Shown here: one piece after another, positions 7,137-23,031 of the stretch
How positions within the stretch are numbered: position 1 is the first letter of the stretch
How the letters are laid out: the number at the start of each line of letters is the position of its first letter
Assembly: GCF_900631615.1 (NCBI RefSeq)
Contig: NZ_LR131273.1
Span: forward strand, 4,062,850 to 4,126,849
From: Tsukamurella paurometabola
GTDB lineage: Bacteria > Actinomycetota > Actinomycetes > Mycobacteriales > Mycobacteriaceae
Direction of reading: 5' to 3'
Length of the DNA: 64,000 nt
Position numbers and translations under genes: made by a program
The notes under the pieces: model-generated
What the model was told of the DNA's origin: nothing
The model's input: only the letters and a program-made list of their open reading frames with translations
The model's database searches: none

Positions 7137-8177
7137 ATGCGAATCGGATTGGGCATCAACTACACGGACGGGTTCAAGGCCACGGCCGACGAGGTCCTCG
7201 ACCTGGAGCGGGCGGGACTGGACATCGTCTTCGTCCCCGAGGCGTACTCGTTCGACGCGGTGAGCGCGCTGGGCTACCTCGCCGCGAAGACGGAGCGCGT
7301 GCAGTTGGCGTCCGGCATCCTGCAGATCTACACCCGCACGCCCACGCTGACGGCGATGACCGCGGCCGGCCTCGACAACGTCTCCGACGGCCGGTTCATC
7401 CTCGGCCTCGGCGCGTCGGGACCGCAGGTGATCGAGGGCTTCCACGGGGTGAAGTACGACGCCCCGATCGGCCGGACCCGCGAGATCATCGAGATCTGCC
7501 GCCAGGTCTGGCGCCGCGAACGCCTCGAGCATCGCGGCAAGTACTACCAGATGCCGCTCACCCGGGAGGACGGCGGCACGGGGCTCGGTAAGCCGCTCAA
7601 GCTGATCAATCACCCGGTGCGCGAACGCATCCCGGTGCTGCTCGCCGCGCTCGGCCAGAAGAACGTGGCACTGGCCGCGGAGGTCGCGGAGGGCTGGCAG
7701 CCCATCTTCTTCCTGCCGGAGAAGGCCAAGGACGTCTGGGGCGACGCGGTCGCCGAGGGCACGGCCAAGCGCGATCCCGCGCTCGGCGAACTCGATGTCT
7801 ACGCCGGGCCGGCGCTGGCGATCGGCGAGAACGTCGACCACCTGCTGGGCTTCGTCAAACCGCACCTCGCGCTCTACATCGGCGGCATGGGCGCCAAGGG
7901 GAAGAACTTCTACCACACGCTGGCGACCAACTACGGCTACGGCGCCGAGGCCGACCGGATCCAGGAGCTCTACCTCGCCGGCGACAAGGCCGCCGCGGTC
8001 GAGGCCGTGCCGGACGAGTTGGCCCGCAGCGTCTCCCTCATCGGCCCGAAGGGCTACGTGAAGGAACGGGTCGCCGCGTTCGAGGAGGCCGGGGCCACGG
8101 TGCTCAACGTCGTGCCGATCGCGGAGGACGCGGCCGGCCGGGTCAAGCAGGTCGAGGCGCTGCGCGAGCTCCTCTAG
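7137..8177 (+). CDS. LLM class F420-dependent oxidoreductase
   Basis: Luciferase-like (bacterial luciferase-fold TIM barrel) oxidoreductase of 346 residues. It resembles the mycobacterial Rv3520c-type group, which is expected to use coenzyme F420 rather than FMN. It begins MRIGLGINYTDGFKATADEV; VQLASGILQIYTRTP, DGRFILGLGASGPQVIEGFHG and AEVAEGWQPIFFLPEKA are typical of this subgroup. The substrate cannot be inferred. The ATG at 7137 is preferred over an in-frame start at 7113 because the family begins with the MRIGLG strand. A strong hairpin just downstream probably ends this transcript. Confidence 0.85.
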   Translation: MRIGLGINYTDGFKATADEVLDLERAGLDIVFVPEAYSFDAVSALGYLAAKTERVQLASGILQIYTRTPTLTAMTAAGLDNVSDGRFILGLGASGPQVIEGFHGVKYDAPIGRTREIIEICRQVWRRERLEHRGKYYQMPLTREDGGTGLGKPLKLINHPVRERIPVLLAALGQKNVALAAEVAEGWQPIFFLPEKAKDVWGDAVAEGTAKRDPALGELDVYAGPALAIGENVDHLLGFVKPHLALYIGGMGAKGKNFYHTLATNYGYGAEADRIQELYLAGDKAAAVEAVPDELARSVSLIGPKGYVKERVAAFEEAGATVLNVVPIAEDAAGRVKQVEALRELL

Positions 8178-8243: not shown

Positions 8244-9269
8244 GTGACCGAAGCACCGTTCCCCCGCCCTCGCCTCTCCCTGCTCGAGCTCGCTCCCGTC
8301 GTCGACGGTGCGTCCTTCGGCGACGCCCTGCGCGACACCATCGCGACCGCACAGGAGGCCGAGCGTCTGGGCTACGAGCGGGTCTGGGTCGCGGAGCACC
8401 ACTCGATGCCGGGTATCGCGAGCTCCGCCCCGGCGGTGCTCATCGGCCAGATCGCGGCCGCGACCGACACCATCCGGGTGGGCTCGGGCGGCGTGATGCT
8501 GCCGAACCACCAGCCCCTCGTCGTCGCGGAGCAGTTCGGCACGCTGGACGCGCTGTTCCCCGACCGCATCGACCTCGGCATCGGGCGCGCGCCGGGCACC
8601 GATCAGCTGACCGCGCACGCGCTGCGGGGCGGGAAGGTCAGCGAGTCCGTCGATGACTTCCCGCAGGCCCTGGCGCATCTGCGGGCGTTCCTGCGCGACG
8701 ACTTCCCCGCCGACCACCCGTACGTCGCGATCAGCGCGACGCCGGGCGTCGGCTCGAACCCGCAGATGTGGTTGCTCGGCTCGTCGACGTTCAGTGCCAA
8801 GCTCGCCGGCCTGCTGGGGCTGCCCTTCGCCTTCGCCCGGCACTTCGCGCCGCAGGCGACGTTGCCCGCGCTCGCCGAGTACCGGGAGACCTTCCGCCCC
8901 GGGGACCTGGACGCCCCCAACGCGATGCTGACGGTCACGGTCGTGGCTGCGGACACCGATGAGGAGGCCCAGCGGATCGCCGGGCCGGCGAAGGCCTCGA
9001 TGTACCGGGTGCGCACCGGCAATCCGGGGCGGATGATGACCTACGAGCAGGCCGCCGCGCAGCCGCTCACGCCCGAGCAGGAGCACGCCATCGCGCCGAC
9101 GACGTCGGCGTGGATCGTCGGCTCGCAGGCGACGGTCCGCGATGAGCTGCGCGAGCTGCTCACCCGCACGCAGCCGCAGGAGCTGATGATCTCCGGCATG
9201 ATCCCCGGTCTGGTCGAGCGCAAGCACAGCCTCGAGCTGATCAAGGGTGCAGTCGACCAGCTCGGGTAG
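8244..9269 (+). CDS. LLM class flavin-dependent oxidoreductase (luciferase-like group 1)
   Basis: FMN-dependent luciferase-fold monooxygenase of about 341 residues, close to the YhbW/alkanal-monooxygenase-like group. Visible are [75 protein letters not shown] and a C-terminal [18 protein letters not shown]. The start is placed at the GTG at 8244 ([16 protein letters not shown]). The alternative ATG at 8211 lies in the loop of a 14-bp hairpin and would add a Gly/Pro-rich stub. The same subgroup occurs again at 20748-21779. Substrate unknown. Confidence 0.85.
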
Positions 9270-12050: not shown

Positions 12051-12075
12051 TTTCCCACTCGCACCGGGTGCCGTC

Positions 12076-12186
12076 TCAACCCGCCCATGGTCGCGCCGCC
12101 GGTGGCCCGCCCGTCGCCCGCCGTCGGCCGCGGACGGAGTGCACCGCGACGACGGCGAGCACGATCAGCACCACGGTCACGCGCAT
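12076..12186 (-). CDS. possible 36-residue single-pass membrane peptide
   Basis: Reading minus from the ATG at 12186 gives MRVTVVLIVLAVVAVHSVRG, then a basic Arg-rich segment and a Pro/Ala tail ending at a TGA at 12078-12076. One hydrophobic helix (residues 3-16) followed by RGRRR is the classical topology of a short type-I-like or anchored peptide. It lies in the 160-nt gap between ilvA (25 nt downstream) and the divergent histidine kinase. The ribosome-binding site is weak. It could be chance in GC-rich DNA, where Val/Ala/Leu codons dominate, so confidence is low to moderate. Confidence 0.3.
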   Translation of the reverse strand: MRVTVVLIVLAVVAVHSVRGRRRATGGPPAARPWAG

Positions 12187-12211
12187 GCCGCCACTCTGCC
12201 ATCATTGCCAC

Positions 12212-13300
12212 GTGTTCGACGGTGACCGCATGCGCTTCGGGTTCGCCGCCTCGGTCGTCGGCTTGGCCCTCGCGGCGTTCACGCTGCGCTGGGACGAGCA
12301 CCTGCCGTTCGCGCCGATCCTGTACGCGGTGCAGTGCCTCGTGGTGGCGTCACGGGCGCTCCCGGCGAGCCGCCTTCCCGAACGTGGGTGGATCGCCGTG
12401 GAGGCGGTCGGGGCCGTGACGGGCGGCGTGCTCTTCGCGCTGCAACCGAACCCCGGGACGGGCATCCTGCTCTACGTCTCCGCGGTCTACTACGGCGTCC
12501 GGTTCCCGCAGCGGGTTTCCATCCCCCTCGGTGTCCTTCTCGGCGGCACGGTCGCGCTCGGCCTCGGGCTCCAGCGCTCGGGGGACTTCTGGATCGGCCT
12601 GACGATCGCGATCTCCGTCTGGGCGGGGATAGCGCGACGGACCCGGCGTGAGCGCACGCGGGCCCTCGAGCAACTGGTGGAACAGACCACGCTGACCGCG
12701 GAGTCCGAGGCGCGCAGCAGCGCCCTGGCCGAGCGCGCCCGGATCGCGCGGGACCTGCACGACGTCCTCGCCCACACCCTCTCCGGCGCGGGGATGCAGC
12801 TCGAGCTCGCGGACGCCCTTCTGGAGGCGAACCGGCCCGACGACGCCCGCGCCGCCGTTCAGCGCGCCCGCGGCGCCATTGCGGACGGGGTCATCGAGGC
12901 GCGTGGGGTCGTGCACGCACTGCGGGAGGACACCGTCGACCTGCCCGCCGCCCTCGCCGCGCTCGCGGACGGGCCCGACGTGACCGTGCGGACGCTGCCC
13001 GTCGAACTGTCGGACGCGCAGGCGCGCGCGATCCTGCGGGTCGCGCAGGAGGCGATCACGAACGCCCGGCGGTACGCCGCGGGCGCCCCCGTGACGGCCC
13101 GCCTCGCCCCCGTGCCCGACGGTGCCGAGCTCGCCGTGGTGAACGGCCCGGGCACGGCGAGCGGCGTGCCCGGTTCCGGAATGGGCCTCATCGGCATGCG
13201 CGAGCGCGCGGCCGAGGTCGGCGGCACAGTGCACGCCGGTCCGAACGGCGACGGTGGCTGGACCGTGCGCCTCACCATCCCGACGAAGGAGGACGCGTGA
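12212..13300 (+). CDS. NarL-type sensor histidine kinase
   Basis: About 362 residues. The N-terminal region (5-145) has five or six hydrophobic segments and no large extracellular domain, suggesting a sensor that reads the membrane or an in-membrane signal. A short coiled-coil (150-185) leads to the HisKA_3 dimerisation domain with ERARIARDLHDVLAHTLSGA, whose first His is the expected phosphorylation site. The HATPase domain shows AQEAITNARRYA (N box) and GSGMGLIGMRERA (G box). The start is the GTG at 12212 or the ATG at 12230; no ribosome-binding site decides. The stop overlaps the regulator's GTG, so the pair is translationally coupled. The signal sensed is unknown. Confidence 0.9.
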   Translation: MFDGDRMRFGFAASVVGLALAAFTLRWDEHLPFAPILYAVQCLVVASRALPASRLPERGWIAVEAVGAVTGGVLFALQPNPGTGILLYVSAVYYGVRFPQRVSIPLGVLLGGTVALGLGLQRSGDFWIGLTIAISVWAGIARRTRRERTRALEQLVEQTTLTAESEARSSALAERARIARDLHDVLAHTLSGAGMQLELADALLEANRPDDARAAVQRARGAIADGVIEARGVVHALREDTVDLPAALAALADGPDVTVRTLPVELSDAQARAILRVAQEAITNARRYAAGAPVTARLAPVPDGAELAVVNGPGTASGVPGSGMGLIGMRERAAEVGGTVHAGPNGDGGWTVRLTIPTKEDA

Positions 13301-13977
13301 ACGAGGTGCGTGTGGTCGTGGCCGACGATCAGGCGGCGGTGCGCGACGCGCTCGCCGCGATGCTCGACCTGGCACCCGGGATCTCGGTGGTCGGAGCCGC
13401 CGCCGACGGCGTCGAGGCCGTCGCCCTGGTGCGGGAGCATCACCCCGACGTCCTGCTCACCGACCTGCGGATGCCGAACCTCGACGGTGCCGGTGCCACC
13501 GAGCGCGTGCTGACGGACGCCCCCGAGACCGCGGTCGTACTGCTCACCACCTTCGACGACGAGGAGTCGATCCTCCGCGGCCTGCAGGCGGGCGCCCGCG
13601 GCTACCTCACCAAGAACGCGGGGCGTGCCGAGATCGCGGCGGCCATCATGGCGGCCGCCGCGGGGCAGTCCGTGCTGGACCCCCACGTGCAGCAGCGCCT
13701 GCTCGCCTCGGCGACCGGGACCTCCGGGTCCCGGCGGGCACCGTCGGCGCCGCCCGCCGTCCCGCCCTCCGACCTGACGCCCCGGGAGACGGAGGTGCTG
13801 CGGCTGATCGCCGACGGCCTCACCAATCGCGACATCGCCGCGCGCCTGTTCGTGAGCGAGTCGACGGTGAAGACGCACATCAACAACCTGTTCGCGAAGG
13901 CGCAGCTCCGGGACCGCGCGCACGCCGTCCGATACGCCTTCGATTCCGGGATCGCCGCATCCGGTCAGGGCGATTGA
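13297..13977 (+). CDS. NarL/FixJ-family response regulator
   Basis: 226 residues. The receiver domain (1-118) has the acidic pair Asp10/Asp11, the phospho-acceptor Asp56 (DVLLTDLRMPN), the switch Thr in LLTTFDD and conserved Lys106 (GYLTKNA). A Pro/Ala/Ser-rich linker (about 140-158) leads to a LuxR/GerE helix-turn-helix (LTPRETEVLRLIADGLTNRDIAARLFVSESTVKTHINN). Its GTG start overlaps the kinase stop by 4 nt, so the kinase above is its partner. The next genes (ABC importer) begin 43 nt later on the same strand and are plausible targets or co-transcribed genes, but no operator is evident. Confidence 0.92.
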   Translation: MNEVRVVVADDQAAVRDALAAMLDLAPGISVVGAAADGVEAVALVREHHPDVLLTDLRMPNLDGAGATERVLTDAPETAVVLLTTFDDEESILRGLQAGARGYLTKNAGRAEIAAAIMAAAAGQSVLDPHVQQRLLASATGTSGSRRAPSAPPAVPPSDLTPRETEVLRLIADGLTNRDIAARLFVSESTVKTHINNLFAKAQLRDRAHAVRYAFDSGIAASGQGD

Positions 13978-14019: not shown

Positions 14020-14994
14020 ATGGCGACAACGATCCTCTCCCCGTCGCGGCCCGCGCAGGGCCCGCAGGCGGGCACCCCGACGGCACCGGTGCACCTGGTG
14101 CCGCGCCGCCGCCCCGCGCGCTGGCTGGCCGCCGCCGTGGTGGCGGTTCTCGGCGCGATGCTGCTGCACACCCTGTTCACCAATGAGCGCTTCGAGTGGC
14201 CCACGGTCGCCCACTACTTCACACAGCAGGCCGTCCTCAGGGGCCTCTGGCTCACGCTGTGGCTCACGGCGGTCACCTTCGCCGCCGGTTTCGCGCTCGG
14301 GATCGGGCTCGCGGCGATGCGGCTGTGGGGCGGGTCCGTGCTCCGGACGGTGTCGTTCGTGTTCGTCTGGCTGGTGCGGTCGGTCCCGCCGCTGGTGCTG
14401 CTGCTCTTCTGGTTCCAGCTCGCGTCGCTGTACCCGCGGCTGTCGCTGGGGATCCCGTTCGGCCCCGAGTTCGTCACGTTCGACACCACGCACCTCATCA
14501 GCGGGCTGGTCGCGGCGTTCATCGCGCTGACCATCGACGTCGCCGCGTTCGCCGCGGAGATCGTCCGCGGCGGGCTGGTGTCCGTGGACCCGGGCCAGAC
14601 GGAGGCCGCGCGATCGCTGGGCCTGAGCCCGCGCCGCATCTTCCGCCGGATCGTCCTCCCCCAGGCGATGCCCGCCATCATCCCCGCCTCCGGCAACCTG
14701 CTCATCGGACTCCTGAAGTCGACGTCGCTGGTCAGCGTCATCGCGGTGACCGACCTGCTGTACTCGGTGCAGCTGGTCTACAACCAGAACTTCAAGGTGA
14801 TGCCGCTGCTGTTGGTCGCGACCATCTGGTACGTCGTGATCACGTCCGTGCTGGCAGTGGGCCAGTACTTCGTGGAGCGCCGCTTCAACCGGGGACGACG
14901 GGACGCCCGCCCGTTCCGCGAGATCCTCGCCGACGCCGCACGACTGCGCCCCCGCCTCCCCCGCGCCACCCACGCGGCGGGAGACCGCGGATGA
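14020..14994 (+). CDS. amino-acid-type ABC transporter permease (HisM/GlnP family)
   Basis: 324-residue inner-membrane permease of the polar-amino-acid uptake family. A 33-residue cytoplasmic N-terminus precedes a first helix (36-52). Five further helices follow, with the family signature [67 protein letters not shown] (the EAA loop that docks on the ATPase) and [17 protein letters not shown]. It is longer than minimal GlnP because of the N-terminal extension and an Arg-rich C-terminus. The ATPase gene overlaps its stop (ATGA). The solute-binding lipoprotein and an LLM monooxygenase follow, so substrate import and oxidation appear coupled. Confidence 0.92.
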
Positions 14995-15761
14995 GCGCGA
15001 TCGAGGTCCGCGGGCTGCGGAAGTCCTTCGGCGGCACCGAAGTGTTGCGCGGCGTCGACCTGGACGTGGCCGAGGGCGAGGTCGCCATCGTCCTCGGCCC
15101 CTCGGGGTCGGGGAAGTCGACACTGCTGCGCTGCATCAATCACATGGAGCGGCCCGACGACGGATACGTCCGGGTGAACGGCGACCTGATCGGCTACCGC
15201 GAGAGCGGACGTCGCGGCGACGCGGCCGTGCTGCGCGAGCTGCACCCCCGCGACGTGGCTCGGCAACGCCGCCGCATCGGGATGGTGTTCCAGCAGTTCA
15301 ACCTCTTCCCGCACTTCACGGTCCTCGAGAACCTCACCGAGGGGCAGCTCGCCACCGGCGTCTCCCCCGCGGAGGCGGCCGAGCGAGGGCGCGAGCTCCT
15401 CGCCCGCGTCGGCCTCGCCGGCCGCGAGAAGGCGTACCCGTCGCAGCTCTCGGGAGGCCAGCAGCAGCGCGTGGCGATCGCCCGCACCCTGGCCATGCAG
15501 CCCGACGTCGTGCTCTTCGACGAGCCCACCTCGGCCCTGGACCCGGAGCTGGTGGGCGAGGTGCTGGCCGTGATCCGCGATCTCGCCGAGTCGGGCATGA
15601 CCCTCGTCGTCGTGACCCACGAGATCGGCTTCGCCCGCGACGTCGCCGACACCGTGATCTTCATGGACGACGGCCGCATCGTCGAGACCGGCGGGCCCGC
15701 GGCGATCTTCGCCGACGCCGAACACCCCCGCACCCGCGAATTCCTCGCGGCCGTGCGCTGA
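14991..15761 (+). CDS. amino-acid-type ABC transporter ATP-binding protein
   Basis: 256-residue ABC ATPase of the GlnQ/HisP family that powers the adjacent permease at the cytosolic face. Walker A is GPSGSGKST, the Q-loop is [11 protein letters not shown], the signature is [17 protein letters not shown], Walker B is [14 protein letters not shown], and the switch is [10 protein letters not shown] 20-residue insertion after the first strands ([23 protein letters not shown]) is slightly longer than in GlnQ. The ATG overlaps the permease stop by 4 nt. The solute-binding lipoprotein starts 31 nt downstream. Confidence 0.95.
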
Positions 15762-15792
15762 TCCCCCGCTAGACCGAGTCCGAGGAGACCCC

Positions 15793-16710
15793 ATGCGCAG
15801 CCGCGCCCTGTTCGCCCTGCCCCTGCTCGCCGCCGCCACCGTCCTCACGGCGTGCGGCGGATCGTCCGATCCCGCGGCGGAGAGCTCCGGCTACCCGATT
15901 CCGACGCAGGACGTGGTGTCCTCCGTCGCCGTGGATCCGGCCGCCCAGGCCCTCCTGCCGGCGGGTACGAAGGAACTGACGCTGGGACTCACCCGGCAGC
16001 CCGGCATCAACAACCTGCCGCACGGCGGAGAGGTCCCCGACGGGAACCCGGTCGGCCTGGACGTGGACCTGCGCAACGCCGTCGCGAAGGCCCTCGGCGT
16101 CACCTGGAAGCAGGAGATCGGGACGTTCTCCACGATCATCCCGGGTGTCCAGAACGGCCGGTACCAGGTGGGCCAGGGCAACTTCGGCGTCACCAGGCCG
16201 CGCCTCGAAGTGGTCGACTTCGCGACCTACCTCAACGACGGACAGTCCTTCGTCGGCTCGTCGAAGTCCGGCCTCACGAGTGTGAAGACGCTGGAGGACC
16301 TGTGCGGCAAGAAGATCGTCACCGGCTCCGGCACCACCTTCCAGCAGATCCTGGAGAAGGGCGTGCAGCAGTGCACATCGAAGGGCAAGCCCGCCTACAC
16401 CGTCCAGTACCTCGACGACCAGGGCGCCGTCATCCTCAGCCTGCAGAACAACAAGGTCGACGCGTACTTCGGCCCGACGCTCTCCCTGCGGTACCTGGTG
16501 GACAAGGTGCCCGGGACGACGTTCCTCGGCGAGTACTCCACCACCGTGGTCGGTTTCGTGACGGCCAAGGGGTCCCCGATCGCGCCGGCGATCTCGCAGG
16601 CGATCAACACGCTCATCGCCCGCGGCGAGTACCAGAAGCTGTTCGAGAAGTGGAAGGTCCCGACGTCGGCCCTGCCGAAGTCCGAGATCAACCCGGCCGC
16701 GGGGTTCTGA
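15793..16710 (+). CDS. solute-binding lipoprotein (SBP_bac_3 family) of the ABC importer
   Basis: 305 residues. It starts with a lipoprotein signal, MRSRALFALPLLAAATVLTA followed by Cys21, the residue expected to be lipidated and anchored to the outer face of the membrane. The mature protein has the SBP_bac_3 pattern: KELTLGLTRQPGINNLPHGG, GLDVDLRNAVAKALG, RPRLEVVDFATYLNDGQSFVG, LEDLCGKKIVTGSGTTFQQIL and VDAYFGPTLSLRYLVDKVPG. This family usually binds amino acids or small amino-acid derivatives. An LLM monooxygenase begins 3 nt downstream, hinting that the ligand is oxidised after uptake. Confidence 0.92.
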   Translation: MRSRALFALPLLAAATVLTACGGSSDPAAESSGYPIPTQDVVSSVAVDPAAQALLPAGTKELTLGLTRQPGINNLPHGGEVPDGNPVGLDVDLRNAVAKALGVTWKQEIGTFSTIIPGVQNGRYQVGQGNFGVTRPRLEVVDFATYLNDGQSFVGSSKSGLTSVKTLEDLCGKKIVTGSGTTFQQILEKGVQQCTSKGKPAYTVQYLDDQGAVILSLQNNKVDAYFGPTLSLRYLVDKVPGTTFLGEYSTTVVGFVTAKGSPIAPAISQAINTLIARGEYQKLFEKWKVPTSALPKSEINPAAGF

Positions 16711-16713
16711 CCG

Positions 16714-17724
16714 GTGACGATCGAATCGCTCGCCTTTCTCACCCCCGGCAACTACCTCGATGACGATCCGGCGGGAGGGCTCGAGGACACGCTGCGGCTC
16801 ATCGCGTTCGGCGAGGGCCTGGGCTACCGCGGCGCCTGGGTGCGCCAGCGCCACCTGGAGCACGGCATCTCGTCGGCGGCGGTCTTCCTCGGGGCGGCGT
16901 CGCAGCGGACCTCCACGATCGAGCTGGGCACCGCCGTCATCCCGATCGGCTACGAGAACCCCTTCCGCCTGGCTGAGGACCTCTCCCTCGCGGACGCCCT
17001 CTCGGGCGGGCGGATCCAGGCCGGCTTCTCCACCGGCATGCCGCACGCGGACCTGCTCGCGGACGTGGTCTTCGAGGGCGACTGGCGCGCGTACGAACTC
17101 GGTCACGCGCGGGTGGCGCGCACGGTCGAGCACCTGCGGGGCGCGTACCTCGGCGACGAGGACGCGCGGATCGAGTCCCCCGGCACCGTGCAGCGCCCCC
17201 GCCTGCAGCCCCACACCCCCGGCCTCGCCGACCGCTCCTGGTACGGCGGAACGTCGCTCGGCTCATCCCGGTGGACCGGCGAGGCCGGCCTGCACCTGCT
17301 GACCGGCAACATCGTCTCGGCCGCCGGGATCGAGTCCGACGACTTCGGCACGGTCCAGGCCACCCTCATCGACGCCTACCGCGCCGCGGGCGGGACCGGC
17401 AGGCGGGTCGCCGTCGGGCGCGTGATCGTGCCGACGGACAGCGCCGACCGGGCCACCGTCGCGCGGTACCGCGAGTACGCACGGTCGCGCCACGACCGCA
17501 CGCTGAGGTCGCACGGCGAGAGGCGCACGCTGTTCGCGGAGGACCTCGTGGGGCCGATCGCGGAGATCGCCGAACGGCTCGCCGCCGATCCCGCGTTCAC
17601 TCCGGAGTCCGGGCCGATCACCGAGTTCCGGCTCGAGCTGCCGTACGAGTTCGACGTCCGCGACTACGAGCAGATCCTCACCGACGCGCGCGGGCTGCTG
17701 CCCGCGCTCTCGTCGGCGGCCTAG
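16714..17724 (+). CDS. LLM class flavin-dependent monooxygenase linked to the ABC importer
   Basis: 336-residue luciferase-fold monooxygenase. Its GTG start is 3 nt after the stop of the solute-binding lipoprotein, so it is the fourth gene of the importer operon. Typical features are LGYRGAWVRQRHLEHGISSAAVFLGAASQRT (14-residue strand-loop-helix after the first barrel strand), TIELGTAVIPIGYENPFRLAEDLSLADALSGGRIQAGFSTG and a C-terminal FRLELPYEFDVRDYEQILTD. No flavin reductase is encoded nearby. By analogy with Bacillus ytm/ytn-type sulfur clusters, where an amino-acid-type importer is paired with an LLM monooxygenase, the substrate may be a thioether or S-modified cysteine; this is inference. 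It is convergent with the acyl-CoA synthetase, 5 nt apart. Confidence 0.88.
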   Translation: MTIESLAFLTPGNYLDDDPAGGLEDTLRLIAFGEGLGYRGAWVRQRHLEHGISSAAVFLGAASQRTSTIELGTAVIPIGYENPFRLAEDLSLADALSGGRIQAGFSTGMPHADLLADVVFEGDWRAYELGHARVARTVEHLRGAYLGDEDARIESPGTVQRPRLQPHTPGLADRSWYGGTSLGSSRWTGEAGLHLLTGNIVSAAGIESDDFGTVQATLIDAYRAAGGTGRRVAVGRVIVPTDSADRATVARYREYARSRHDRTLRSHGERRTLFAEDLVGPIAEIAERLAADPAFTPESGPITEFRLELPYEFDVRDYEQILTDARGLLPALSSAA

Positions 17725-17729
17725 GTGGG

Positions 17730-19355
17730 CTAGGTCCGGGTCTCGCGCAGGGTCCGGACGAGGTTCTTCTGGATCTTGCCGGTCGCGGTCTTGGGCAGGG
17801 CGTCGACGAAGACGATCTCCTTGGGCGCCTTGAAGCCCGCGAGGTTCTGTCGCGCGTACTCCAGGAGGGCATCGCCGTCGGCCGCGCCCGACGGTGAGGT
17901 CACGACGAAGGCCGTCACGGCCTCGCCCCAGTGCTCGTGCGGGGTTCCGACGACGGCGACCTCGGCGACCGCGTCGTGGCCGAGCAGGACGCGCTCGACC
18001 TCCACCGAGGAGACGTTCTCGCCACCCGACTTGATGATGTCCTTGGCGCGGTCGGTGAAGTAGACGACGCCCTCGTCATCGAGGTAGCCGATGTCGCCGC
18101 CGTGGAACCAGCCGTGCGCGAAGGCCTCCGTGTTCGCGGCGGCGTTGTTCCAGTACCCCTCCATGAGCTGCGGTGCGCGGTAGACGATCTCGCCGACCTC
18201 ACCCGGCGGGAGCAGGGCACCGTCGTCGCCCATGATCGCGACATCGGTGGAGACGGTGGCCGGACCCCAGGAGTCGTCCTTGACGCCCTGGTGGCCGGTC
18301 CACTGCACCTCCGACGCCGGGGTGGTCTCGGTCTGGCCGGAGCCGAGGATGATGGCGGCCCCGGGGAACCGTGCCCGCAGGGCGGCGAGCAGTTCGGCCG
18401 GCATGGGCGCCATCGCGTACAGGCCCGTGCGCAGCGAGGCGGTGTTCTCGTCGGTGAGCTCGGGCCGGGTGAGAAGGGCCGCCCACATCATGGGGAGCAG
18501 CGTCAGGTGAGTCACCCGGTGCTCGACGAAGGCGCCCGCGAGCGCCGCCGGGTCGAAGCCGCGCAGGAGGACCGCGGTGCCACCCGTGAGCAGCATCGGC
18601 ATGAGGAGCGCGTCGAGGGCGGTCACGTGGAACAGCGGCAGCGCGATGGGCTGGACGGCGGGCTCGACGTCGGGCCGCACGCCGAGCGCGACCGCGGACG
18701 AGAGCGCCGAGATGTGCACCGCGACATGGCTGGTGACGACACCCTTCGGCCGGGCGGTGGTACCCGAGGTGTACAGGCAGTGCAGGATGTCGCGGTCCTC
18801 GACGATCGTCTCCACCACCGAGTCGTCCGCGTCGGGTACGTCGGTGAAGGCGGTCGACGGGATGCCGCCGACCTCCGCGGGAAGTGCGCCACCGCCGTTC
18901 GCGACGAGGTAGACGGCCCCCACCTGATGTTCCGCGGCGTCGAGGGCCGCAGTGAGCGCCGGCACGAAGACGTCCTCGCTGATCACGGCGCGAACGCCGC
19001 TGTCACCGAGTTGGTAGGCCACATCGCCCGGGGCGAGCAGCAGGTTCACCGGCATGGCCACCACGCCGAGCTTCGCGCATGCGAACAGCGCCACCACGAA
19101 CTCCCACCGGTTCTGCAGTTGCAGCGCGATCGCGTCGCCCCGCCGGAAGCCGCGGGTCTGCAGGCCGCGCGCGAGCGCGTTGGCCCGGCTCTCCAACTCC
19201 CGGTACGTCACGGTCGATCCGCCGTCGACGAGGGCGACGCGATCGCCGAACGAGCGCGCGCCTCGCGTGGGCAGGTCGCCCAGGCACACGCGGTGGGTGA
19301 GGTTGACCACGAGGGGGTCGACACCGGACAGATCGGGACGCATCGCACGGCTCAT
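17730..19355 (-). CDS. AMP-dependent acyl-CoA synthetase
   Basis: About 541-residue ANL-superfamily ligase that activates a carboxylic acid as an adenylate and transfers it to CoA. Motifs are LYTSGTTARPKGVVTSH (phosphate loop), the GSGQTETTP loop, GWFHGGDIGYLDDEGVVYFTDRAKDIIKSGGENVSSVEVE (hinge and C-domain) and PKTATGKIQKNLVR with the catalytic lysine. The substrate cannot be read from sequence; the length and hinge resemble fatty- or aryl-acid ligases. It lies 55 nt downstream of the LLM genes on the same strand. A TACCGT hexamer 6 nt before the ATG suggests it also has its own promoter. In-frame starts at 19379 and 19343 are alternatives. Confidence 0.9.
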   Translation of the reverse strand: MSRAMRPDLSGVDPLVVNLTHRVCLGDLPTRGARSFGDRVALVDGGSTVTYRELESRANALARGLQTRGFRRGDAIALQLQNRWEFVVALFACAKLGVVAMPVNLLLAPGDVAYQLGDSGVRAVISEDVFVPALTAALDAAEHQVGAVYLVANGGGALPAEVGGIPSTAFTDVPDADDSVVETIVEDRDILHCLYTSGTTARPKGVVTSHVAVHISALSSAVALGVRPDVEPAVQPIALPLFHVTALDALLMPMLLTGGTAVLLRGFDPAALAGAFVEHRVTHLTLLPMMWAALLTRPELTDENTASLRTGLYAMAPMPAELLAALRARFPGAAIILGSGQTETTPASEVQWTGHQGVKDDSWGPATVSTDVAIMGDDGALLPPGEVGEIVYRAPQLMEGYWNNAAANTEAFAHGWFHGGDIGYLDDEGVVYFTDRAKDIIKSGGENVSSVEVERVLLGHDAVAEVAVVGTPHEHWGEAVTAFVVTSPSGAADGDALLEYARQNLAGFKAPKEIVFVDALPKTATGKIQKNLVRTLRETRT

Positions 19356-19361
19356 GGCCGC

Positions 19362-19367
19362 ACGGTA
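19362..19367 (-). promoter_or_regulatory. candidate -10 element of the acyl-CoA synthetase
   Basis: Reads TACCGT on the minus strand, 6 nt before the ATG at 19355. The same hexamer occurs 7 nt before the first LLM gene of this strand (22881-22886), so the two transcription units may share a sigma factor or regulator. There is no ribosome-binding site between it and the start. Confidence 0.4.
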
Positions 19368-19410
19368 ACCGGTTCGCACCGGCCGTGCGCCACGAACGAG
19401 TGAAGAGGCG

Positions 19411-20751
19411 CTAACCGGCGCGCTGCGCTCCGCTCGTGGTCTCCGGGACGGGCAGCCCGAGATGATCGCGCAGAGTCGATCCCGCGTAGTCCGGCCGGAA
19501 GGCGCCGCGCTCCTGCAACAAGGGCACCACGCCGTCGATGAACTCGTCGAGTCCGGTGGGCGTGAGGTGCGGGACCAGGATGAAGCCGTCGGCGGCGTCG
19601 GCCTGGATGAACGTGTCGATCTCGTCGGCCACCTGCTCGGCCGTGCCGACGAATTGCGGGCGGGTGTTGAGCTCGATGACGAGTTCGCGAATGGAGAGGC
19701 CGCCGGCCTCGGCTCGCGCGCGATAGGTCGCGACGATCTCGCGCGGATCCGCGTGCAGCACGCGCCCCTGGACGGCGGGGGCGTCGTAGACGGGCTCGAC
19801 GTCGGGCAGCGGACCGTCGGGGTCGAAGGACTGCAGCTCCCGGCCCCACACCTGCTCGAGGAAGTTGAGCGCGGTCTGCGGGCTCACCTGCCGGCGCCGG
19901 ATGTCGCGGGCCTTCTCCTGGGCCTCGTCCGCCGTATCGCCGATGACCGCGGCGGCACCGGGGAACACCTTGAGGTGGTCCGGGTTCCGGCCACGGTCGG
20001 CGGCGCGGCGTTTGACGTCGGCGTAGAACGCCCGGCCGCTCTCGAGCGACCCGTGGCGGGTGAAGATCGCATCGGCCTGCGTCGCCGCGAAGTCGCGCCC
20101 CTCACCCGAGTCTCCGGCCTGCAGGAGCACCGGGTGCCCCTGCGGGGAGAGCGGGAGTGGCGCCGCGCCCCGGACGTCGAACTGCGCACCGTGGTGGACG
20201 ACCTCGCCGCGGCCCCAGCCGTCCCAGAACTTCCGTGCGACGGTGACGAACTCGTCGGCGCGGCGGTACCGGTCGGCGTGCGCGAGGTAGCCGCCGCGGC
20301 GGAAGTTCTCCCCCGTGAAGGCGTCGGAGCTGGTGACCATGTTCCACGCGGCCCGCCCGGCGCTGAGGTGGTCGAGGGTGGCGAACTGTCGGGCCACGTC
20401 GAAGGGCTCGTTGAAGGTCGTGTTGATGGTGCCTGCGAGGCCGATCCGGTCGGTGACGGCGGCGAGTGCGGAGAGCACGGTGAAGGTGTCCGGTCGGCCG
20501 ACGACGTCGAGGTCGTGGATGCGTCCCAGGTGTTCGCGCAGCCGCAGCCCCTCGGCGACGAAGAAGAAGTCGAACTTCGCCCGTTCGGCCGCCCGCGCGA
20601 GGTACACGAAGGAGTCGAACTCCACCTGGCTGCGCGCCGCCGGGTCCGACCACACGGTGTTGTGGTTGACGCCCGGGAAGTGCGCGGCCAGGTGAATCGG
20701 CTTGCGGTGCGCACCCTCCCGGACGGGGACGTCGGCGCGGTGCATCGTCAT
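19411..20751 (-). CDS. NtaA/SnaA/DszA-family FMN-dependent monooxygenase
   Basis: 446-residue two-component monooxygenase subunit that needs FMNH2 from a separate reductase. The subfamily includes NTA, dibenzothiophene-sulfone and long-chain alkane monooxygenases. Signatures are IHLAAHFPGVNHNTVWSDP, EFDSFVYLARAAERAKFDFFF, HLGRIHDLDVVGRPDTFTVLSALAAVTDRIGLAGTINTTFNEPFDVARQFATLDHLS, RAAWNMVTSSDAFTGENFRRGG and HPVLLQAGDSGEGRDFAATQADAIFTRHG. The ATG at 20751 overlaps the stop of the upstream LLM gene (ATGA), which fixes the start. It is third in a coupled three-LLM run. The substrate is likely an organosulfur or N-substituted compound (inference). Confidence 0.92.
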   Translation of the reverse strand: MTMHRADVPVREGAHRKPIHLAAHFPGVNHNTVWSDPAARSQVEFDSFVYLARAAERAKFDFFFVAEGLRLREHLGRIHDLDVVGRPDTFTVLSALAAVTDRIGLAGTINTTFNEPFDVARQFATLDHLSAGRAAWNMVTSSDAFTGENFRRGGYLAHADRYRRADEFVTVARKFWDGWGRGEVVHHGAQFDVRGAAPLPLSPQGHPVLLQAGDSGEGRDFAATQADAIFTRHGSLESGRAFYADVKRRAADRGRNPDHLKVFPGAAAVIGDTADEAQEKARDIRRRQVSPQTALNFLEQVWGRELQSFDPDGPLPDVEPVYDAPAVQGRVLHADPREIVATYRARAEAGGLSIRELVIELNTRPQFVGTAEQVADEIDTFIQADAADGFILVPHLTPTGLDEFIDGVVPLLQERGAFRPDYAGSTLRDHLGLPVPETTSGAQRAG

Positions 20752-21779
20752 AGGAGGCCCCATTCCTTGGCCAGGAGTTCGTGGCTGCGCAGACGCGCGG
20801 TGTGATCGTGCGTGACCGAGGTGATCACGAGTTCGTCGGCGCCCGTGCGCTCGACGAGCGCACGGAGTCCATCGGCGACGCGGCCCGGTTCGCCGACGAA
20901 CTGGGTGTCGGTGCGGTCCGCGACCGTCGCGCGCTGCTCGTCGCTGAGCGCGGCGCTGTCGCGCGGGTACGCGATCGCCCCGGACCCGTACCGGATGGAG
21001 TGCACCCACGCGGGAAAGCCCGCCGCGAGATCCCGTGCCTGCGCGTCGGTCTCGCCCACGACCACATCGGCGCTCACCACCAGGTGCGGCTCGGCGAGGC
21101 GATCGGACGGACGGAACGCCTCGCGGTAGGCACGCGCCGCGTCGGCGGTGGTGGTAGGGCTGACGTGGTAGTTGGCGACGAACGGCAATCCGCGGGCGCC
21201 CGCGAGCTGCGCGCTCTCCCCCGCGCTGCTGCCGAAGATCCACACGGGCGCGTCCCGGGCAGCCTCCGCCACCGGGGAGCGCAGCGCGTGCCCGTCGGCG
21301 ACGAAGGTGCCGGCGACCAGGTCCAGGACGTCCTCGACCTGCCGCGTGTAGCTCGGCGGTTCCGCCTTCGGGTGGTAGAGCTGCTCGTAACCCGCGACGA
21401 TCGCGGGGTTCGGCGCGGGCGCACCGGGCGGCGGCGTCCGCAGCCGCTGGCCGGTGCGTCCCAGGCCGATATCCACCCGCCCGGGGTGCAGCGCCGCCAG
21501 TACGCCGAACGCGTCGGCGACCGCCGGTGCCGTCGTGAAGCCGATGAGGACGGCCGCCGAGCCGACGCGGATCCGGCTGGTACGCGCGAGGATCTCACCG
21601 ATCAGAACGGCCGGCGCCGCACTCGCGACGTGCGCGAAGTGGTGCTCGGCCACCCAGTACCGGCCGTAGCCCCAGTCCTCGGCGCGGCGCGCCAGGTCCA
21701 GGGTGTTGCGCAGGGCGTCCGACGGGGTGGCCCCGTCGGGAATCGGCGCGAGGTCGAGGACGTTCAGCCCGGCGACCAT
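20748..21779 (-). CDS. LLM class flavin-dependent oxidoreductase (luciferase-like group 1)
   Basis: 343-residue luciferase-fold oxidoreductase of the same subgroup as the gene at 8244-9269: LNVLDLAPIPDGATPSDALRNTLDLARRAEDWG, YWVAEHHFAHVASAAPAVLIGEILARTSRIRVGSAAVLIGF, GRVDIGLGRTGQ, WIFGSSAGESAQLAGARGLPF and a C-terminal ELVITSVTHDHTARLRSHELLA. It is the middle gene of a run with overlapping stops and starts on both sides: its ATG shares 1 nt with the upstream stop, and its stop overlaps the next ATG. Stoichiometric co-expression of the three LLM proteins is therefore likely. Substrate unknown. Confidence 0.88.
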   Translation of the reverse strand: MVAGLNVLDLAPIPDGATPSDALRNTLDLARRAEDWGYGRYWVAEHHFAHVASAAPAVLIGEILARTSRIRVGSAAVLIGFTTAPAVADAFGVLAALHPGRVDIGLGRTGQRLRTPPPGAPAPNPAIVAGYEQLYHPKAEPPSYTRQVEDVLDLVAGTFVADGHALRSPVAEAARDAPVWIFGSSAGESAQLAGARGLPFVANYHVSPTTTADAARAYREAFRPSDRLAEPHLVVSADVVVGETDAQARDLAAGFPAWVHSIRYGSGAIAYPRDSAALSDEQRATVADRTDTQFVGEPGRVADGLRALVERTGADELVITSVTHDHTARLRSHELLAKEWGLL

Positions 21780-22873
21780 CAGGCCCCCCTCACGGTGGCG
21801 AAGCGGTTGACCGCGGTTCCCAGGCCCAGGATCTCGCGGAGTGTGCCCTCGCGCGGCGCGCCCGGCAGCAGCGGCGCGAAGGCCGCGCGAATCCGTGGCA
21901 GGTCCACGGCGTTGACGCCCGGACGCAGCCGCGCACCGTCGAAGCCGAGCGCCTGCCACCCCGCGACCACACGGGCGAGGGACTCCCCCGTCCCGGCGAA
22001 GACGAGCGTGTCGTCGTCGGCGGGCTCGCGGCGGTCCAGCTTCTCGATGCGCCGGATCGCGGTGCGCTCGGAATCGGCGAGGTGGACGGTGACGTCGACG
22101 AGGAGCCGTGCCACCCCCGCGGCGCGGAGCCGACGGGCGGTGTCCTCGAGTTCCGCCTCGGGAGCTGCGGGGACGATCGCGAGATCCGCGTCCGCGGCGA
22201 CGGACTCCGTGGCGTCATCGGTGACGCGGACGATCACGGGCGGTCGCCCCTGCGGGGGTCGGGGGGTGATCGACGGTCCCTTGACGGAGAAGTTCTCGCC
22301 CTGGAAGTCGATGTAGTGCAGGCGGTCCCGGTCGACGAACCGGCCGGTGGCGACGTCCTTGACGATCGCATCGTCCTCCCAGCTGTCCCAGAGGTCGCGC
22401 AGCACCTCGACGTACTCGCGCGCCTCGGCGGCGCGGGACGCGGCGTCCTGCGGCTGCTTCCTTCCGAACAGGGCGGCATCCGCGGTGGCACCTGTGGTGG
22501 CGGGGAGCACGCCGGCACGACCGCCGCTCACGTAGTCCAGCGTGGCGATCGCCTTGGAGGCGTGGAAGGGCTCGGTGTGGGTTGCGGTCACGGTGGGGAC
22601 GAGGCCGACGCGCGACACCGCGGGGGCCACGCGGGCGGCGAGCAGAGTGGCGTCGAACCGACCGGTGAGCCGATCGCGGGCGGTGAGCGAGAAGGAGTCC
22701 TCGAAGGTCACGAGGTCGGCGGCGGCCGCCTCCGCGGAGCGGGCCAGCCCAACCCAGTGCTCCGCGGAGGTGGCCTCCAGTGGATCCGCGCCGACCTCCG
22801 CGAACGCTGCGGGATGCCAGCCGAACGGCTCCAGGGCTATCCCGAGGACAGGGCGTGAGGTAGGCGCGGTCAC
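21779..22873 (-). CDS. LLM class flavin-dependent oxidoreductase, divergent member
   Basis: 364-residue member of the luciferase-fold family and the first gene of the minus-strand LLM run. Recognisable are LGIALEPFGWHPAAF, EHWVGLARSAEAAAADLVTFEDSF, RVGLVPTVTATHTEPFHASKAIATLDYVSGGRAGVLPATTG, EYVEVLRDLWDSWEDDAI, the conserved LHYIDFQGENFSVKGPSITPRPPQGRPPVIV and a shortened C-terminal half. That WEDDAI-to-GENFSVKGPS stretch is typical of NtaA-like subunits. The ADLAIVPAAP segment replaces the usual Gly-rich flavin-phosphate loop, so it could be a partner subunit rather than an active enzyme. GTG start at 22873 with a -10-like hexamer 7 nt upstream. Confidence 0.85.
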   Translation of the reverse strand: MTAPTSRPVLGIALEPFGWHPAAFAEVGADPLEATSAEHWVGLARSAEAAAADLVTFEDSFSLTARDRLTGRFDATLLAARVAPAVSRVGLVPTVTATHTEPFHASKAIATLDYVSGGRAGVLPATTGATADAALFGRKQPQDAASRAAEAREYVEVLRDLWDSWEDDAIVKDVATGRFVDRDRLHYIDFQGENFSVKGPSITPRPPQGRPPVIVRVTDDATESVAADADLAIVPAAPEAELEDTARRLRAAGVARLLVDVTVHLADSERTAIRRIEKLDRREPADDDTLVFAGTGESLARVVAGWQALGFDGARLRPGVNAVDLPRIRAAFAPLLPGAPREGTLREILGLGTAVNRFATVRGA

Positions 22874-22880
22874 GGATTCG

Positions 22881-22886
22881 ACGGTA
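22881..22886 (-). promoter_or_regulatory. candidate -10 of the LLM monooxygenase operon
   Basis: TACCGT on the minus strand, exactly 7 nt before the GTG of the first LLM gene, with GTCACA (4 of 6 to TTGACA) 17 nt further upstream. No Shine-Dalgarno is present, so the message is probably leaderless. Confidence 0.45.
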
Positions 22887-23031
22887 GGCGCCGCGCTTTC
22901 GTCTGTGACCCGTTGCGCTCAGCGTGGATCCAAGGGAATCGAAGGATCGTCTACGTGCAGATATGACGTTCTCGTCAAGATTTCTCGCGAACGGCCCACC
23001 GTCGCGACCCCGGCGCGCGACCATTGCGATC

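Follow-up and report, generated by a model that had tools for sequence, protein, structure and literature searches.

What is the physiological role of a locus in which an amino-acid-type ABC importer, four genes for luciferase-like monooxygenases (LLMs) and an acyl-CoA synthetase (ACS) lie side by side? The question is raised by 64,000 nt of Tsukamurella paurometabola DNA (assembly GCF_900631615.1, contig NZ_LR131273.1, positions 4,062,850 to 4,126,849, forward strand; hereafter “the window”), and to our knowledge the LLMs of Actinobacteria are mostly without assigned substrates. On the plus strand, the genes for the permease, the ATPase, the solute-binding protein (SBP) and LLM1 follow each other, with 3 nt between the SBP stop and the LLM1 start; they face a minus-strand group in which LLM4, LLM3 and LLM2 are joined by stop-start overlaps, and the ACS lies between both groups (Table 1). 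An earlier note on this DNA had read the island as a route for the uptake of an organosulfur or otherwise substituted amino acid, its stepwise oxidation and the activation of the resulting acid. Its gene coordinates and the 3-nt gap are right, and so is the presence of four LLMs (PF00296 is matched by all of them), three of them overlapping. The sulfur role that it proposed is also supported. We consider it rather probable that the island represents, in Tsukamurella, a module that Actinobacteria use under sulfur starvation, and that it would free the sulfur of an organic compound through flavin-dependent C-S cleavage, in the enzyme order proposed below. This role is suggested by the nearly complete absence of cysteine and methionine from LLM1–4, by the SsuD/SfnG-like, flavin reductase and acetyltransferase neighbors of LLM4 homologues in other bacteria, and by the leader peptides ending in cysteine that precede LLM4 in 18 of 77 loci outside the genus.

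Cysteine and methionine are often scarce in the proteins that cells make when starved of sulfur. Counted without the start methionine, as throughout, LLM3 and LLM4 contain neither residue, LLM1 contains one Met and no Cys, and LLM2 contains one or two of them depending on the start chosen. Pooled, LLM1–4 have 3 Cys plus Met (C+M) in 1485 residues, against 32.8 expected (binomial P 2.7e-11) from a background of 309 called ORFs (pooled C+M 2.21%), which were taken from 20 segments of this genome, each 20 kb long. Of all amino acids, these proteins are most depleted in Cys (0x) and Met (0.13x), followed by Lys (0.39x). As a control for the fold, the LLM domains of the island (2/1165) were compared with 22 other LLM domains (104/5602, 1.86%; Fisher P 4.6e-7), for which GC3 at the listed matches decided the reading frame (doubtful in one case). 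The SfnG of the genome is likewise low (2/369), as expected for a sulfur-acquisition enzyme, and its SsuD-like (alkanesulfonate-monooxygenase-like) neighbor has 1.5%. The oxygenases that Gordonia NB4-1Y induces on organic sulfur contain on average 0.88–1.33% C+M vs. 3.01% for the proteome, according to excerpts of the source (PMC7661421). Depletion is maintained in the 15 congeners found among the searched genomes, from which the stretches around LLM4 were taken (the loci L013–L015 come from three of the same genomes): counting only the best aligned piece where a gene is split, the pools are 1/5390 for LLM4, 12/5165 for LLM3, 20/6468 for LLM2 and 18/4967 for LLM1. The importer pools are higher, with 43/4390 (1.0%) for the SBP, 59/4460 (1.3%) for the permease and 69/3554 (1.9%) for the ATPase.

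Table 1. Features of the island, in positions of the 64,000-nt window, and of the second locus, in genome and locus positions (C+M, cysteine plus methionine).
Feature	Position	Strand	Remarks
Two-component histidine kinase and response regulator, association uncertain	12068..13977	+	upstream of importer
PAAT-type ABC permease, 324 aa	14020..14994	+	PF00528, 82.5 bits; C+M 1.2%
PAAT-type ABC ATPase, 256 aa	14991..15761	+	PF00005; C+M 2.3%
Solute-binding lipoprotein (SBP), family 3, 305 aa	15793..16710	+	PF00497
LLM1, monooxygenase of unnamed LLM subfamily, 336 aa	16714..17724	+	PF00296, 76.4 bits
AMP-binding acyl-CoA synthetase (ACS)	17730..19379, alternative ATG start 19355	-	PF00501/PF13193
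LLM2, NtaA/DmoA-family FMN monooxygenase, proposed catalytic subunit, 446 aa	19411..20751	-	TIGR03860
LLM3, MsnO8-family monooxygenase, 343 aa	20748..21779	-	TIGR03558
LLM4, proposed flavin-less partner of LLM2, 364 aa	21779..22873	-	below TIGR03860 cut-off
Conserved ~75-nt block, probable promoter/operator	22874..22950	-	congener alignment
Second locus, acetyltransferase	G000:C1 ~4005536-4006249		heads operon; 2 C+M in 236
Second locus, whole operon	L168:9537-13752, G000:C1 ~4005536-4009751		C+M: permease 0/306, ATPase 0/262, binding protein 1/338

Within the genus, the seven genes other than the ACS occur together in 14/15 congeners; in the fifteenth (G006) the contig begins inside the SBP gene and the remaining genes are in order. 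The closest named matches of LLM4 are from Tsukamurella species, and the annotated T. tyrosinosolvens NCTC13231 copy has a gene order identical to that of the window. Frame breaks, probably sequencing errors, split LLM4, LLM2, the ACS and the kinase in the 83%-complete genome G014 (locus L103). Outside the genus, 77 loci were available among the best 80 of at least 597 matches of an LLM4 pattern search. The co-occurrence of the island genes, on which the earlier note would have let its reading depend, holds within Tsukamurella and only partly beyond it: a separate LLM2 match accompanies LLM4 in 76 of these 77 distant loci (the exception being L084), but an importer is near in only 34. This last figure joins PAAT permeases (20 loci) and Opp/Dpp importer genes (16 loci), both being present in two loci, and leaves out L055, where an ATPase and SBPs stand at a contig end; some contigs are short. 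All neighbor counts derive from the clustering of called genes and are lower bounds because several loci are cut by contig ends. LLM3 was found near LLM4 in 45 loci and LLM1 in four; the closest LLM1 relatives outside the genus, those of L021 (57%), L078 (67%) and G031 (68%), are surrounded by genes of the module, the last one following a DUF1684 gene in an Opp cluster. The LLM1-LLM4-LLM2 genes of L021 are of actinobacterial type, and this contig, which bears the label Candidatus Melainabacteria, is probably misbinned.

The company kept by these distant LLM4 genes also points to sulfur. N-acetyltransferases are near in 25/77 loci (directly beside LLM4 and on the same strand in 16), flavin reductases in 13 and SsuD/SfnG-like LLMs in 11. 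Clusters were first named by eye and then checked with one representative each (the Opp clusters keep their by-eye names): Pfam models confirmed acetyltransferases (GNAT), DUF1684, FMN_red, flavin reductase, a DAO-type oxidase and a GST C-domain; among the LLM clusters, one representative is an SfnG above the cut-off and two are nearest to SsuD, below its cut-off; no model is passed by LLM5, and the cluster F420_17 proved to be an F420 glucose-6-phosphate dehydrogenase with the LLM fold. The distant LLM4 proteins have a median C+M of 0.00%, with none at all in 55/77 of them, against a median of 2.09% in 602 background proteins; the gene caller used for the distant loci scored Met and Cys codons, whereas the one used for the own-genome background did not. 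LLM2, LLM3, LLM5, SBPs, OppA, acetyltransferases, DUF1684 proteins and flavin (FMN) reductases are depleted as well, whereas GST15, F420_17, ACAD19, ACAD30, pta and ackA show no depletion and a small desulfurase-like cluster shows no clear one. Some loci unite many of these parts: a Streptomyces plasmid carries permease, ATPase, SBP, acetyltransferase, leader peptide, LLM4, LLM2, an LLM and an MsnO8-type LLM in a single cluster, and Rhodococcus aetherivorans (L071) has permease, ATPase, SBP, oxidase, acetyltransferase, LLM4 and LLM2. A table of the sulfur-metabolism proteins that change when Rhodococcus qingshengii IGTS8 grows on dibenzothiophene (PMC8557817) lists, under consecutive gene numbers, a TcyC-like ATPase, a sarcosine oxidase and a binding protein, and also an NtaA-type protein named ScmK; we infer that these dibenzothiophene-responsive genes form the same cluster as in R. 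aetherivorans.

A further sign comes from short ORFs with the motif (H)(I/V)DLxRVxxxxC, which lie at most 500 nt upstream of LLM4 in the 18 loci mentioned above, among 37 intergenic hits in total; the reversed motif gave 0 hits, and the motif with Cys changed to Trp gave 3, none of them before LLM4. The other hits precede SsuD/SfnG-like, OppA and permease genes, together with five before GST15 and five before unnamed genes. Of six scanned leaders, four passed NF042934 (putative leader peptide), including all three taken from before LLM4; against NF042933, the model for Ms5788A, presumably one of the mycobacterial polycysteine attenuators, they reached 17–23 bits (cut-off 45). Polycysteine ORFs of the leader type act as cysteine-responsive attenuators in mycobacteria, according to the consulted part of PMC9031893. 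GST15 (GST C-terminal domain; L030, L034, L038, L058, L085) has a similar HIDLxRV leader upstream though the protein is undepleted.

As to the number of enzymes, the four LLM genes probably make three rather than the four successive monooxygenases of the earlier note, because LLM4 looks like a flavin-less partner of LLM2. LLM2 passes TIGR03860 (397.9 bits, cut-off 279.7), LLM3 passes TIGR03558 (277.7 bits, cut-off 166.95), LLM4 stays below the cut-off of TIGR03860 (172.5 bits vs. 279.7) and LLM1 passes none of the 17 listed LLM models, the top one being TIGR04027 (LLM_KPN_01858, 90.1 bits vs. a cut-off of 412.9). The best solved match of LLM2 is Bacillus YtnJ/CmoJ (YtnJ/MoxC; 286.8 bits), which supports the parallel that had been drawn with the Bacillus ytm/ytn clusters; DszA and DmoA are also among its solved relatives. 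In NtfO1-NtfO2/StmO1-StmO2 (PDB 7E36), a pair of LLM proteins related to each other, one protein has the (docked) FMN site and a lid, and the other is without the lid. All eight FMN-site residues of NtfO2 are kept in the window LLM2 and two of eight (T101, T133) in LLM4; the lid spans 119 aa in LLM2 and 49 in LLM4, where it is lost. Residues F56, Y155 and Q203 were found in 86, 86 and 86 of 86 LLM2 proteins vs. 1, 3 and 0 of 81 LLM4 proteins, and the predicted structure of LLM4 has the LLM fold (pLDDT 86). A side loop has 14 residues in the window LLM2 and 32 in LLM4, a complementarity known from NtfO1/NtfO2 that most LLM2 homologues do not show. The LLM3 gene separates both genes in the window. 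Since LLM4 has lost most of the FMN site and the lid while its near-constant partner LLM2 keeps both, these anatomies and the analogy suggest that LLM2 (catalytic) and LLM4 (flavin-less) probably form one heterodimer like NtfO1/NtfO2. If the pair is real, a two-subunit architecture known from antibiotic biosynthesis would also serve sulfur nutrition, and LLM genes would often need testing in pairs. Unlike the island, the Ntf/Stm pair belongs to polyketide biosynthesis; here an importer and further LLMs adjoin, and the proteins are nearly free of Cys and Met.

The importer is less firmly tied to the system than the LLM group. Its permease passes the PAAT permease domain TIGR01726 (47.2 bits, cut-off 42.2), and no listed NCBIfam equivalog reaches its cut-off for the permease, the ATPase or the SBP; for the ATPase, the best among the best 25 of 189 models is TcyN (328 bits, under a cut-off of 406). 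Arg137 and Pro228 of the SBP are invariant in 14/14 aligned SBPs; in the alignment, Arg137 falls on the carboxylate-binding Arg of amino acid binders and Pro228 on the α-amino-binding Asp of LAO/GlnH-type proteins, Asp being present at the latter column in AncQR and in GlnPQ domain 2. These two positions hint, weakly, at a ligand with a carboxylate and without a free α-amine, e.g., an N-acyl amino acid; the fold search of the SBP does not discriminate among ligand classes. Ten ABC ATPases of the genome have C+M of 0–4.6%, as read at the listed matches, with one probably in a wrong frame. One of the acetyltransferase families that adjoin LLM4 in the distant loci is represented here by two close homologues (53% and 52%), one of which is undepleted (2.2%), while the other heads a second operon whose importer is almost free of Cys and Met (Table 1) and is followed on the opposite strand by a GntR/UTRA regulator. 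Orthologues of this acetyltransferase at 63% or more are present in 11/15 congeners. The second operon is probably a partner of the island, and Tsukamurella seems to hold the parts of a cluster of the Streptomyces plasmid type in two places. Thus, the importer of the window, which had been proposed as part of the system, keeps only a moderate link to it, given its undepleted ATPase and the presence elsewhere in the genome of an importer that fits better, having almost no Cys or Met and an acetyltransferase beside it.

Amino-acid-type importers together with two LLM classes are also the gene content of the Bacillus subtilis ytm region. The island shares with ytm/ytn (CmoO, CmoJ) this combination and a proposed CmoJ-like C-S cleavage; in contrast to it, the island is without acetyltransferase, deacetylase and flavin reductase, and has four LLMs, one of them the putatively flavin-less LLM4. 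Excerpts of PMC10863075 describe how Bacillus N-acetylates S-alkylcysteine, which CmoO converts into the sulfoxide and CmoJ into a sulfenic acid and an aldehyde, followed by reduction and deacetylation. By analogy, LLM1–4, nearly devoid of Cys and Met, would be made upon sulfur limitation; the importer and/or the second acetyltransferase-importer operon would supply a substrate that bears a carboxylate and may be N-acetylated, for instance an S-substituted cysteine; LLM3 or LLM1 would probably oxidize the sulfur first, as CmoO does; LLM2, binding FMNH2 and acting with LLM4 as one heterodimeric monooxygenase, would then cut the C-S bond, as CmoJ does; and FMNH2 would come from an unlinked reductase. 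Actinobacteria release mercapturates from mycothiol conjugates. A narrower version of the reading, tentative and to our judgment not likely in this full form, is that of a widespread actinobacterial module in which a two-subunit LLM cleaves the C-S bond of N-acylated cysteine S-conjugates, maybe the mercapturates of the cell's own mycothiol conjugates (the cell would then recycle detoxification waste), with leader control in some lineages and proteins almost without Cys and Met. Corynebacterium seuABC, for sulfonate esters, comprises three neighboring, sulfur-controlled LLM genes in another member of the Mycobacteriales, and resembles the island in this respect. YxeK, as far as we know, acts without an LLM4-like partner. 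The scm/yxe pathway of S-(2-succino)cysteine breakdown (YxeK/ScmK) follows an acetylate-cleave-deacetylate plan in the consulted parts of PMC12757645 and PMC9706529, and some of the distant clusters resemble it in joining an acetyltransferase, an ABC importer and an FMN monooxygenase, whereas the island has no M20 deacetylase. Taken together, the island would be a variant of the cysteine/organosulfur salvage by importer plus LLM, with a probable flavin-less subunit and a distributed, nearly Cys/Met-free list of parts.

Several observations weigh against parts of this reading. Two of the 22 other LLM domains (L146, L153) also have no Cys or Met, and 3/186 background proteins of at least 250 aa have 0.3% C+M or less; the importer of the window is only partly depleted, with the permease and the SBP moderately low and the ATPase not. 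Neither a permease nor an Opp gene was clustered in 43/77 distant loci, and the leader motif has no match in the window, where the Cys-rich short ORFs of a looser scan all lie well away from the island, at 42.4 and 46.5 kb. The island contains no acetyltransferase among the proteins scanned (the homologue lying in the separate operon) and no M20 deacetylase (eight matches genome-wide, none of them Cys/Met-depleted in a rough choice of frames, some possibly wrong). In SocA, which binds N-substituted amino acids, the Pro228 column holds Asp, so that Pro228 does not cleanly indicate an N-blocked ligand. Concerning the heterodimer, the 32-residue side loop is kept in 70/86 LLM2 homologues, so the complementarity fails for most of the family; the alignment shows no conservation of H151 across the LLM2 family, and two of the FMN-site residues, T101 and T133, persist in LLM4.

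Other explanations share part of this evidence. It is quite possible, if short of probable, that the starvation role is right and the substrates are others, namely sulfonates, sulfones or sulfonate esters as for SsuD, SfnG and SeuABC, with sulfite released instead of a cysteine thiol. The SsuD/SfnG-like neighbors, the leaders before such genes, the kinship of LLM2 with DszA and DmoA, and the Gordonia LLMs that rise on sulfonates in the excerpts of PMC7661421 would all suit this substrate range; the amino-acid type of the importer, the acetyltransferases directly beside LLM4 and the separate SfnG and alkanesulfonate-monooxygenase-like genes that the genome already has argue against it. We know of no need for acetyltransferases in sulfonate systems. 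If depletion merely shielded flavoenzymes that leak peroxide, and the island degraded an N-substituted amino acid like the nitrilotriacetate (NTA)/EDTA monooxygenases, no link to sulfur would be required; NtaA and EmoA are indeed in the family of LLM2 and the importer is of the amino-acid type. This we regard as unlikely, since depletion extends to partners from which no peroxide would be expected (transport proteins, acetyltransferases, DUF1684 proteins), the ATPase and the permease of the second locus lack both residues apart from the start Met, the average of the 22 other LLM domains is 1.86% and the F420-dependent LLM-fold neighbor is undepleted. Least probable of all is a role in secondary metabolism, with the genes as a tailoring cassette comparable to StmO1-StmO2 in the biosynthesis of streptoseomycin: NtfO1-NtfO2, the closest characterized pair of such anatomy that was found, does tailor a polyketide, but the island genes include no biosynthetic ones, an importer adjoins, the island is present in 15/15 congeners and the proteins are Cys/Met-depleted.

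The full pathway of the earlier note (import, four successive oxidations and CoA activation by the ACS) is very unlikely too; the ACS speaks against it, and so does the loss of most of the FMN site in LLM4. In its favor, the ACS follows LLM2 on the same strand inside the island in 12/15 congeners. Its start, though, is 31 nt (GTG) or 55 nt (ATG) past the LLM2 stop with no overlap, so the coupling to the LLM genes that had been described is not borne out; its C+M is 2.2% in the window and 171/6475 (2.64%) pooled over the 12 congeners; it is missing from the island in G006, G007 and G015; and it gives only 26–31% matches, in 8/77 distant loci. G006 and G007 have a 71–72% ACS elsewhere in the genome, and in G015 none was found at E 1e-100. 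In G007 its place is taken by a gene of flavodoxin fold (L105:4420-5238), which passes the FMN_red model too, accompanied by MarR-, hydrolase- and TetR-like genes (named by eye), and in G003 a PIN-domain gene (L094:11427-11822) sits between the ACS and LLM1. Because the ACS is missing in these three congeners and other genes stand at the junction in G007 and G003, the convergent junction is variable, the flanking operons being stable; the PIN-domain gene is a further sign of an insertion site there. Not depleted, not constant and with weak matches outside the genus, the ACS is probably a bystander at this junction rather than the last step of a pathway. Cys/Met depletion sorts probable partners from bystanders inside one locus; it also hints at the physiological condition in which the LLMs may act, and it agrees with the unlinked acetyltransferase-importer operon that had been found by homology.

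Regarding the control of the island itself, the block directly upstream of LLM4 is conserved in most of the 13 congeners that were aligned with the window (all but L103 and L105), and the DNA further up is not; it is weaker in L097, L098 and L106, its core occurs once in the genome at ≤3 mismatches, and the alignment makes it a probable promoter/operator. No CymR/CysB-like regulator was seen beside the genes, no search by family having been made. The histidine kinase, named from its kinase domains, and the response regulator, named from the PGAP annotation in T. tyrosinosolvens, are both present in 13/15 congeners; in G007 the sequence before the permease extends over 736 nt and does not include the regulator, and the G006 contig ends inside the SBP gene. 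The family scan of the island proteins found no flavin reductase, as had been noted before, and a candidate source of FMNH2 is a PF03358 FMN reductase at ~4057114-4057710, which adjoins a CE1758-family LLM ~5 kb before the window. L174 (NZ_LR134463.1), the “plasmid 21” of T. tyrosinosolvens, carries aspS and alaS together with the gene order of the window, and is probably a piece of chromosome. The genome of the island, a single contig of 4.70 Mb (G000:C1), contains 26 LLM matches in all. Among these further LLMs, an F420-dependent Rv3520c-type enzyme (TIGR03559) and a second MsnO8-family one (TIGR03558) are encoded upstream in the window (7137-8177 and 8244-9269), both less Cys/Met-poor than LLM1–4, and two own-genome LLM genes (L173:8031-8996 and L153) are without Cys or Met in the part examined.

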